Part shown: positions 9,053 through 15,163 of the stretch, one piece after another
Layout of the letters: each line of letters begins with the position of its first letter
How positions within the stretch are numbered: the first letter of the stretch is position 1
Assembly: GCA_016182365.1 (NCBI GenBank)
Contig: JACOXO010000019.1
Span: 1-33,946 of the forward strand
DNA length: 33,946 nt
DNA from: Candidatus Gottesmanbacteria bacterium
GTDB taxonomy: Bacteria > Patescibacteriota > Microgenomatia > JACOXO01
Direction of reading: 5' to 3'
Notes under the pieces: model-generated
Database searches by the model: none
What the model was told of the DNA's origin: nothing
What the model saw: only the letters and a program-made list of their open reading frames with translations
Translations under genes and position numbers: made by a program

Positions 9053-9298
9053 TTATAAATGAGCCAGTTTCTCAAGAATAGGCTGATATTCTTCCATAAA
9101 TCCATCAAGCCAATCTTTAAATTCCGGTGTAAGTGTTTTCTTTGCAGCCTGAGATTTGGGCTTAACAACAAGTGTTCTCATTGGAGTATTTATCTCCAAA
9201 GCAACTTCTTCCCCAATTTTATAATTTGCACTCTGCAAAAACTCTTTAGGTATGGTAATTGCGGCGCTGTTGCCGACTTTGATTATTTTTTGAATCAT
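9053..9298 (-). CDS. AbrB/SpoVT-fold antitoxin
   Basis: MIQKIIKVGNSAAITIPKEFLQSANYKIGEEVALEI is a swapped-hairpin AbrB N-terminus, directly upstream of doc. Confidence 0.92.
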   Translation of the reverse strand: MIQKIIKVGNSAAITIPKEFLQSANYKIGEEVALEINTPMRTLVVKPKSQAAKKTLTPEFKDWLDGFMEEYQPILEKLAHL

Positions 9299-11759: not shown

Positions 11760-12308
11760 TTATTTAGTAACTAGTGGAAACCAAAGTTTTTTGATTACCG
11801 AAGTACATTTCTTGAGTGTTGATCCAAAAAATGTGTTATCAGAATCACCTTGTCCCATTTCGTAGACTTCATGATTCCAATCAGCTTCTACATACCATCC
11901 TTGTTCACTATTTAATATTTCTGGGTCTATAGGTTCGGATTTCCATGACAATTGAGCTCCTTCAAACGGTTTAAGCGAAGGGGTTTCTACACTAGCTACG
12001 TGTGCATCAAAAGCTTCACCTGAAACGTTAACAACACCTGCAGCTGTAGTAACATTATCTACTTGTTTTAATCCATTGTTACCTATTTTAGCATTAAAAA
12101 CTACTTGATTTTGGTCGTTATAGCATGCTGAAGCATCAGTAACAGTTAAATTTGGACCTTCAGTACTACCTGTAGGTACTGGGATAGGTCCATCCGGACT
12201 TTGAGAAGATGTTACAGGAATTACTGAACCTAATTCTAATACACCAAGTGCCAATGTAATTGCTAAAACCTGTTTAAAATGGGAAAATTCGCGACCTCGT
12301 TCATTCAT
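11760..12308 (-). CDS. Secreted CARDB-like single-domain protein
   Basis: Signal-like N-terminus. PNLTVTDASAC parallels DLTITNASAC of the neighbouring 778-aa protein. C-terminal KKLWFPLVTK tail. Confidence 0.7.
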   Translation of the reverse strand: MNERGREFSHFKQVLAITLALGVLELGSVIPVTSSQSPDGPIPVPTGSTEGPNLTVTDASACYNDQNQVVFNAKIGNNGLKQVDNVTTAAGVVNVSGEAFDAHVASVETPSLKPFEGAQLSWKSEPIDPEILNSEQGWYVEADWNHEVYEMGQGDSDNTFFGSTLKKCTSVIKKLWFPLVTK

Positions 12309-12350: not shown

Positions 12351-13613
12351 TTATCTGGTGTTTCCTGAATACAGAAATTTTCCGTTTACTAAAACAGGTC
12401 TATCATTAACTTCAGCAATAAAGGTAAGCTGATTTTTATTTACCGAATTAGCTGTATAAATTGCGTCAGGATTAAATGGTAATTGTTCATCTATATCCCA
12501 AAATACTCCCACGCCCATTGAATAAGCAGGAACTCCATTTTCATCTTCACCAATAACGACTATTTTGTCTCCACCAACCTGCTCAGGAGAAAAAACAGCT
12601 TTAAAATTTCTTACAGCACCTGAATAGTCTAATCGTGCAATACCATCCTGATCCCATTTATATAACTCCCATTCACCATTCCCTCTTTGAACACCAAATC
12701 TATCTCCACTAATTACATAGTTTTGTACATCACCAATTTCATTTCCTCTTGTTTTTACCTGAAGCGATTGTAAATCCTGCAATTCGTTTCCAAAAAACCC
12801 TCTTTCCAGAACTCCGGCAGAACGGGATAGATCTTCTACAGATTCGAGAAAATAATAATGAAGTCCTTCAATATTAAATTTTATATTTGCCGGATGAGAT
12901 TGAGTAGGTTTTTCAGGTGAACCTAAAAACTCACCTGTTGTTAAGTTTATATGTGTAAATTGAATAACTGCGGGATCTGGATCTGCATCTCCTTGACCTT
13001 CCTGATATTTATATCTGGAATAGGGCATACCTATATGTAAAATTTCATTTTCTCCATATTTAGTTACCGATGTTCTAAGGGGTTGTACACTCGCAACAGC
13101 AGGCACTTTTGATCCAGTAAACTCAGATGCCCAATTATTTGCCTCACGTGAAACTACAAATTCATATTCATTTCTATCTTGAGGTGTTTTCTCTAAAGTT
13201 GCCATCAGTTTTCCATTATCTGTTCTTACAATTGAGGGAGCTGCTTTATCAATACCACTATAATTCTTTATAGTTTCCGGTTCTGCGAAAGTATTTCCTT
13301 GATAAGACATCTTCACAACGCTTAATCCATCTCCTGAATGTTCTGGTGAATAAAGTGTTCCAGTATCTCCGTTTGCATCAACTAGCACATTTTGTGCTTT
13401 TACTTGAAAGTGGGGAATTTCAACAGTTGTCCATTCAACTCTAATAGGTTTTTCCACTTCTCTATGTACAACTGTTGGCGCAGTTTCTTGAGATTGAGAA
13501 CTGTTAACTAAAGTACTAGGTAAATTAGAAACAAAGGGATAGATGGCAGCGCCTGCAAAAGATTCGGCTGCTTTTCTCATAAATGCTCTTCGGGACAGTT
13601 CGTTGTTTGCCAT
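12351..13613 (-). CDS. Tat-signal exported protein of unknown function
   Basis: MANNELSRRAFMRKAAESFAGAAIYPFVSNLPS is a twin-arginine-like signal. The rest looks like a beta-rich extracellular domain. Confidence 0.7.
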   Translation of the reverse strand: MANNELSRRAFMRKAAESFAGAAIYPFVSNLPSTLVNSSQSQETAPTVVHREVEKPIRVEWTTVEIPHFQVKAQNVLVDANGDTGTLYSPEHSGDGLSVVKMSYQGNTFAEPETIKNYSGIDKAAPSIVRTDNGKLMATLEKTPQDRNEYEFVVSREANNWASEFTGSKVPAVASVQPLRTSVTKYGENEILHIGMPYSRYKYQEGQGDADPDPAVIQFTHINLTTGEFLGSPEKPTQSHPANIKFNIEGLHYYFLESVEDLSRSAGVLERGFFGNELQDLQSLQVKTRGNEIGDVQNYVISGDRFGVQRGNGEWELYKWDQDGIARLDYSGAVRNFKAVFSPEQVGGDKIVVIGEDENGVPAYSMGVGVFWDIDEQLPFNPDAIYTANSVNKNQLTFIAEVNDRPVLVNGKFLYSGNTR

Positions 13614-13662
13614 ATTAAGATCCTATAATAACATATTATAAGTTGCTACACAAATTTTTGCC

Positions 13663-13744
13663 TAAAAAAAGGAGCCATCATGGCTCCTTGTATTACAAGG
13701 TTTGTTCAACTATCTTAAGTAGTTGACCTTGATTTAACATTCCA
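13663..13744 (-). ncRNA. Candidate small RNA or attenuator leader (about 80 nt)
   Basis: Own minus-strand promoter (13751-13778), stem-loop TCAACTA-cttaaga-TAGTTGA, terminator AAGGAGCC-atgat-GGCTCCTT plus T-tract. No ORF reported in the track. Confidence 0.55.
13664..13689 (-). terminator. Rho-independent terminator
   Basis: Minus strand AAGGAGCCATGATGGCTCCTT followed by a T-run; perfect 8-bp stem, 5-nt loop. Confidence 0.85.
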
Positions 13745-13750
13745 ACGTAA

Positions 13751-13778
13751 ACTATATCACACTTTTTTATTTTGTCAA
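13751..13778 (-). promoter_or_regulatory. Promoter of the candidate small RNA/leader
   Basis: Minus strand TTGACA (13773-13778), 16 bp, TATAGT (13751-13756). Confidence 0.65.
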
Positions 13779-13798: not shown

Positions 13799-14215
13799 AT
13801 GAATAAAAAATATCTGTTTGGACTAATTGTTTTAATCATTATCATCGTAGGGCTTTATTACCTAAGTAAATCTAATAAGCGGGTTTTACAGGAAACTCAG
13901 GTTACTAAAGAACAAATATCAAGTCCTCCTAACTACGAGAGTATTTCCGGAACAGTTTCAAACATTGACAATCTTTTGATTGATATTAAAGATCCTCTGG
14001 GAAAAGGTTACACTGCAAACCTGACTTTACAAACTAAATATATAAAAATACCTGTACCTGCTCTTTTAGTTGAAAATCCTGATATGAATAAGGAAAGCCC
14101 ATCTGATATTAATCAGATTCAACAAGGGGATAATGTGTCGTTGTTATTTGCTGCCGATTCAAATGATGTAAATACGCTATATTTATATTCAAATAACCCT
14201 GCCGATTTTCAATAA
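13799..14215 (+). CDS. Membrane-anchored hypothetical protein
   Basis: MNKKYLFGLIVLIIIIVGLYYLSKSNKRV N-terminal TM anchor and a small extracytoplasmic domain. Track start 13772 extends upstream; ATG 13799 is more likely. Confidence 0.65.
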   Translation: MNKKYLFGLIVLIIIIVGLYYLSKSNKRVLQETQVTKEQISSPPNYESISGTVSNIDNLLIDIKDPLGKGYTANLTLQTKYIKIPVPALLVENPDMNKESPSDINQIQQGDNVSLLFAADSNDVNTLYLYSNNPADFQ

Positions 14216-14218
14216 TTA

Positions 14219-15163
14219 ATGGATGAACAATCTGAACAACCTCGAAAAATAAGCAGAAGAAAATTTCTCAGAGTAGCCGCTGGCGGAATTATATCTCCAT
14301 TCCAAGAACCTCAAGTTGATCCAGCTGTAAAAGAGCATGTTAGGAAATATCTCGATGGAAAAGATACTGGTTTTAGGGCCGCTTCAGCGGCGAAATTATC
14401 TCCCTATTTAACACGGGAAAGTTTGGCAGGAAAACTAGCAATTGAAGTTCCCCAAAATTTCAATTTTATTCCTGAAATTAAAAACATTCTTATGCAATAC
14501 TATGATGACTGTGTCCCCGCGTCCATAGCTCACTTATCCGCATGGTTATTTGGAAACGGTTCATTAATTTTTTCACCTCGTTTTCTATATTGGTTTCGGA
14601 ATAGGAATAATGGAGCAACATACCCCACGATATTTGACGCATGGACTGGACATGGAAATGCCACAACTGAGGTAGTTCCTTATGGACCAGGCCTTGATAT
14701 AGATACAAAACCAACAAATGAGCAACTTGCAAAAGCAGCAGCGTATAAAATAAATCAAAACGATATTATCAGCGTTCATTCAGGCTACCAAATATTTCCA
14801 AACATCGATGAGTTGGCAGAAATTATGTATCAAAATGGTCCAATACTTGCCGCTGTTAAGGCTTATTCGCCTGAATGGGATATCTGGAAGGAAGATAAAA
14901 TAATTGGAAAGCCAGGAAATGAGGGGAATGTATTTAAACATGCGGTACTATTGGTTGGAGTAAATAAGGATGAAGGGTACATTAATTTTGCTAATTCTTG
15001 GGGTGAAAATTGGGGAATGGGAGGATTTGGGAAGATATCAATACCAGATTGTTATGATGGTGGAACATTTACTGAAATGTGGGCTGTTGATAGTCAAGCT
15101 ATCCGAAGTAGACTTCCACCAATTCAAAGAAGACAATTCGCACCCTTGATTACTAGAGGCTGA
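14219..15163 (+). CDS. Tat-signal papain-like (C1-type) cysteine peptidase
   Basis: ISRRKFLRVAAGG twin-arginine signal; catalytic Cys in YYDDCVPAS, His in FKHAVLLVGVN, Asn in NSWGENWG; C-terminal RRQFAPLITRG. Confidence 0.87.
   Translation: MDEQSEQPRKISRRKFLRVAAGGIISPFQEPQVDPAVKEHVRKYLDGKDTGFRAASAAKLSPYLTRESLAGKLAIEVPQNFNFIPEIKNILMQYYDDCVPASIAHLSAWLFGNGSLIFSPRFLYWFRNRNNGATYPTIFDAWTGHGNATTEVVPYGPGLDIDTKPTNEQLAKAAAYKINQNDIISVHSGYQIFPNIDELAEIMYQNGPILAAVKAYSPEWDIWKEDKIIGKPGNEGNVFKHAVLLVGVNKDEGYINFANSWGENWGMGGFGKISIPDCYDGGTFTEMWAVDSQAIRSRLPPIQRRQFAPLITRG

Follow-up and report, generated by a model that had tools for sequence, protein, structure and literature searches.

A short promoter–terminator unit and its possible role as a leader attenuator in a Candidatus Gottesmanbacteria genome

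A short minus-strand unit between divergent genes

The window, by which we mean the whole stretch of 33,946 nt analyzed here, contains a compact minus-strand unit (13778–13663) flanked by two divergent genes, 12351–13613 on the minus strand and 13799–14215 on the plus strand. The unit opens with the promoter TTGACA-16-TATAGT (13751–13778), which scores 11 of 12 matches in a promoter scan and carries the TG of an extended −10 box, and it closes with an intrinsic terminator (13663–13689) recovered by a terminator scan as a 9-bp stem with a T-run. The terminator hairpin (13689–13669; AAGGAGCCATGATGGCTCCTT) comprises nine pairs, five of them G–C, with a run of seven Ts, two of which are paired. 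If transcription starts ~7 nt 3′ of the −10 box, the predicted transcript is ~80 nt long (13664–13744). A preliminary description of this DNA, made from the letters alone, had proposed just such a promoter followed by ~80 nt and a terminator, and both scans agree with it in sequence and coordinates. The sequence strongly indicates the promoter, the extent of the transcript, and the terminator, and a separate short transcript with a promoter and terminator of its own is well supported. Given that the unit lies in the gap between divergent genes, no ordinary-sized gene ends at its terminator; the absence of a gene between the promoter and the terminator counts in favor of an attenuator.

A putative leaderless mini-ORF and start signals in the genome

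The predicted transcript includes a putative leaderless mini-ORF of 15 codons (13693–13740, minus strand; MLNQGQLLKIVEQTL and a stop codon), with an ATG 10 nt past the −10 box and a stop codon 3 nt ahead of the terminator stem. Post hoc, an ATG at this place with an in-frame stop is found in 8.2% of dinucleotide shuffles, an ORF of at least 10 codons in 2.1%, and one of at least 15 codons in 0.5%. The peptide has three glutamines and four leucines among its 15 residues and no run of a single amino acid. In a published analysis (PMC3160421), leaderless genes are recognized by a TANNNT signal ~10–12 bp upstream of the start. Among 151 ATG-started genes with a 50-nt upstream gap, we count 65 −10-like boxes 6–12 nt ahead of the start against a background of ~22 derived from larger offsets, and 16 Shine–Dalgarno-like motifs against 12 in the control; both counts are approximate because start calls were mechanical. 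The minus-strand gene at 12308 resembles the mini-ORF in its spacing, with TTGACA-17-TATTAT followed by 10 nt and then ATG. Judged from a sample of 668 kb, taken in stretches that include the window, out of a genome of 1.04 Mb, many genes of this organism seem to be translated from leaderless starts.

The downstream gene

The gene that begins 57 nt past the terminator (12351–13613, hereafter 13613) encodes a 420-amino-acid ORFan with an N-terminal RR motif; the protein has no Pfam match and no relatives in genome contigs, 93 other genomes of the class, or viral contigs. It had been described as Tat-exported. The RR motif is present (SRRAFMRKAA), and a second RR-motif protein is encoded in the window at 14219 on the plus strand (SRRKFLRVAA), but a search of the 92%-complete assembly turned up no TatC, so that export by this route is doubtful. 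Past the terminator lie a second promoter-like site, TAGGCA-18-TATAAT (13635–13664, minus strand), and a TATTAT box (13630–13625, minus strand), the latter 11 nt before the ATG at 13613 and thus in a leaderless position. From these sequences, the 13613 gene seems to have a promoter of its own. This is the main argument for reading the unit as an autonomous short RNA, either a trans-acting sRNA or the mRNA of a 15-residue peptide, with 13613 expressed from its own promoter; the strong promoter and terminator of the unit also agree with such a role, although no target was identified. An additional point against an attenuator is that in a read-through RNA the 13613 ATG would follow an extended leader, whereas this genome seems to favor leaderless starts.

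Fold and competing helices

The full-length RNA is predicted to fold with a free energy of −24.1 kcal/mol (z = −4.1), a value reached by none of 200 shuffles. Removal of the terminator leaves a leader with a z-score of just −1.6, and the significance of the fold therefore derives mostly from the terminator. Ahead of the terminator is a hairpin, TCAACTA-7-TAGTTGA (13706–13726, minus strand), which is supported by folding; its stem, described earlier as perfect, consists of 7 bp, all paired. The same two arms separated by a loop of 4–10 nt occur only once in the genome. We considered whether this dyad is instead a DNA-level operator that binds a regulator, the RNA reading being incidental. A perfect dyad near two divergent promoters and unique in the genome would suit an operator; however, 7-bp inverted repeats of this kind are very common (470 in 339 kb), a single copy speaks against a regulon, and the terminator is left unexplained, so we regard an operator as decidedly improbable.

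Three short segments on the minus strand lie around this hairpin. Segment 1 (CAAGG, 13727–13731) coincides with codons Gln4–Gly5 of the mini-ORF, segment 2 (CCTTG, 13696–13700) can pair with either segment 1 or segment 3, and segment 3 (CAAGG, 13686–13690) shares bases with the terminator's 5′ arm. The preliminary description had pointed out this choice of partners, with four bases of the downstream CAAGG shared with the terminator stem, and folding reproduces both helices. They occur together in 0.23% of dinucleotide shuffles and the antiterminator alone in 6.4%, in tests that were chosen after the sequence had been seen and whose values are post hoc. The 1:2 helix with the hairpin (−9.7) and the 2:3 helix with the hairpin (−10.3) are nearly isoenergetic, and as long as the terminator lacks its 3′ arm the 2:3 antiterminator is favored (0.81 versus 0.18), which counts for an attenuator. 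At full length, the complete terminator structure (~−24) prevails over the alternative (~−15 to −16) with a terminator probability of 0.9997. That the antiterminator is ~8 kcal/mol worse than the terminator, takes four of the nine terminator pairs, and leaves five counts against an attenuator: thermodynamics alone cannot prevent termination when the 2:3 helix removes so few pairs, and a stalled ribosome or another factor would be needed.

These helices bear on two further explanations. The first is an insulator, in which the terminator would serve chiefly to halt stray minus-strand transcripts arising in the divergent promoter region and the plus-strand neighbor and so shield the promoter of 13613, the RNA itself being inert. 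Such a role is improbable: it suits the position between divergent genes and the scarcity of strong terminators in the genome, but leaves unexplained the 11/12 extended −10 promoter, the position of the mini-ORF, and the competing helices. The second is a metabolite riboswitch with the terminator as its expression platform, as had been suggested because mutually exclusive helices precede a gene. Here, the fold upstream of the terminator is weak, as noted above, and the space for an aptamer is just ~55 nt; the searches described below, in which neither a family match nor a conserved aptamer was found, make a riboswitch the least probable of the explanations that we weighed, and a very improbable one. 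The suggestion of an sRNA or attenuator with its own promoter is upheld in part: the sequence bears out the promoter, the terminator, and the exclusive helices, but not the riboswitch.

Searches for homologs

The Rfam search that had been recommended yielded no match near the threshold of any family, and no credible match to the unit appeared at gathering or at relaxed thresholds and filters. Elsewhere in the genome, the same database identifies an AdoCbl-II riboswitch (L141, 18142–18222, plus strand) above its gathering score. Comparisons of the DNA with the rest of the genome, 58 relatives, phages, and plasmids gave short chance matches only, and no exact 19-mer of the element occurs in viral contigs. 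A covariance model built from the single sequence retrieved nothing convincing from 374 genomes of the class, the best match (E = 0.0034, one genome) being at chance level, and in its own genome its only matches were the element and the complementary strand at that site. Homologs of the neighboring papain-type protein were also not found, and without homologs of this protein or of 13613 there are no syntenic intergenic regions to align. We also scanned 51 PilM loci of related bacteria and found no convincing counterpart; the PilM encoded in the window shares no more than 49% identity with those of Gottesmanbacteria, Woesebacteria, and Levybacteria, and our searches turned up no genome nearer than the same class. 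Lacking homologs, the unit offers no covariation, which counts against an attenuator; the missing conservation across the 374 genomes and the missing Rfam match likewise count against an autonomous RNA.

Promoter–terminator pairs elsewhere in the genome

The 668-kb sample contains 39 strict terminators and 427 promoters with at least 10 of 12 matches. Defining a pair as such a promoter and a strict terminator 30–200 nt apart, we find nine pairs, compared with 0, 1, 0, 0, 0, and 1 in six first-order Markov simulations; promoters with at least 11 of 12 matches account for three of the nine observed pairs and for none of the simulated ones. This excess argues that the unit is statistically real; it does not amount to evidence of transcription. 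Two pairs were set aside, one in stretch L150 that sits in a gene and one in L016 (5448) whose terminator-like hairpin falls within the gene served by its promoter, leaving seven convincing pairs, the window unit included. L016 also contains, just 5′ of a tRNA-Glu gene, a tRNA-like 5′ half with a long stable hairpin (9135–9210, minus strand) that may be a tRNA remnant.

The six other convincing units precede co-directional genes or RNA genes, which counts for an attenuator; siblings placed mostly in gene leaders speak against an autonomous RNA. Two lie on the minus strand of L137. The first (13541–13412) combines an 11/12 promoter with two tandem terminator-like hairpins just ahead of rpoB, and the second (1777–1677) has a promoter, a terminator, and a leaderless ORF running across the terminator just ahead of a gene identified as rplC from reading the sequence. 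One unit in L027 lies ahead of a tRNA-Ala/23S region, and one in L030 ahead of a gene for a secreted protein. The unit in L031 (4129–3937, minus strand) has a leaderless ORF (MKQTLKTSTMAMVAV) and ends in a terminator ahead of a gene for SAM hydroxide adenosyltransferase (SAM_HAT), with the segments AAACCTCC, GGAGGTTT, AAACCTCCG, and GGAGGTTT in this order. The unit in L138 (17942–18123, plus strand) has the promoter TTGACA-18-TATAAT, a leader ORF (MNRQNLLINVINVLLIGGIDVLGGM) rich in leucine, isoleucine, and valine, repeated competing GGAGG/CCTCC segments, and a terminator, and is followed by two small ORFs and then, ~0.7 kb away, by ilvA. Judged by their sequences, the L031 and L138 units resemble classic leader-peptide attenuators in having a 1:2:3:4 arrangement of segments, and the latter, within this genome of the Microgenomates type, is a probable branched-chain amino-acid attenuator. 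The genes behind the siblings mostly lack boxes comparable to those of 13613; rpoB has AATAAT boxes and no −35. These siblings, like the leaderless 15-codon ORF and the promoter-like boxes of 13613, were overlooked in the preliminary description. By analogy, the attenuator-like siblings make a leader reading of the window unit likelier, and the unit would belong to a recurrent leader/attenuator type among the short-transcript units of this genome.

A conditional-terminator leader as the preferred reading

Taken together, we tentatively favor, at somewhat less than even confidence, the interpretation that the unit is a conditional-terminator leader of the attenuator type serving 13613. RNA polymerase would start near 13744 on the minus strand, make ~80 nt, and by default stop near 13664, and the 5′ end of the RNA would fall at or a few bases ahead of the ATG of the leaderless 15-codon ORF. 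A ribosome held early in the ORF, at Gln4/Gln6, would mask segment 1 and leave segment 2 free to pair with segment 3; the 2:3 pairing would shorten the terminator stem and allow more read-through into 13613, whereas unhindered transcription would lead to the terminator. We infer from this arrangement that the mini-ORF may be translated and that read-through into 13613 may be regulated. More speculatively, the lineage might use leaderless leader peptides, made from the extreme 5′ end of the RNA, as attenuator sensors before many genes, that of the exported-looking ORFan among them; in the present case the stop codon is near enough to the terminator for a waiting ribosome to block it. We consider this broader proposal unlikely.

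The leader-peptide attenuators of trp, his, and ilv share with the unit a promoter, a short ORF, alternative 1:2, 2:3, and 3:4 pairings, and a terminator before a gene. In contrast to them, the ORF of the unit is leaderless, has no diagnostic codon run, and ends after segment 2; the antiterminator is weak, a second promoter may be present, and 13613 is not known as an amino-acid synthesis gene. The position of the stop codon, the missing codon run, and the gene's lack of a known role in amino-acid synthesis count against an attenuator, and no match was seen between the leader codons and a pathway of this ORFan. A comparison with short RNAs bears on the autonomous reading. Like the intergenic sRNA units predicted by sRNAscanner, ~40% of whose high-scoring predictions are estimated to be genuine (PMC2916834), the unit has a promoter and a Rho-independent terminator ~80 nt apart, but unlike them it lacks conservation and a target and has an ORF at a leaderless position. 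Another strong terminator in the genome ends a member of a known sRNA family, DUF3800-II (RF02961). This pairing of a short RNA with a strong terminator parallels the unit and favors the autonomous reading, although the DUF3800-II RNA has no match to the unit in sequence or structure. With these points and those given above, we consider an autonomous RNA possible, if somewhat less likely than an attenuator.

For these ultra-small bacteria, our literature searches turned up no work on attenuation or on leaderless genes. With no relatives, the window element is of interest chiefly as an instance of the recurrent set. If these recurrent units are real attenuators, they would represent control of transcription by leader RNAs acting through leaderless ORFs in a genome seemingly without Shine–Dalgarno signals.
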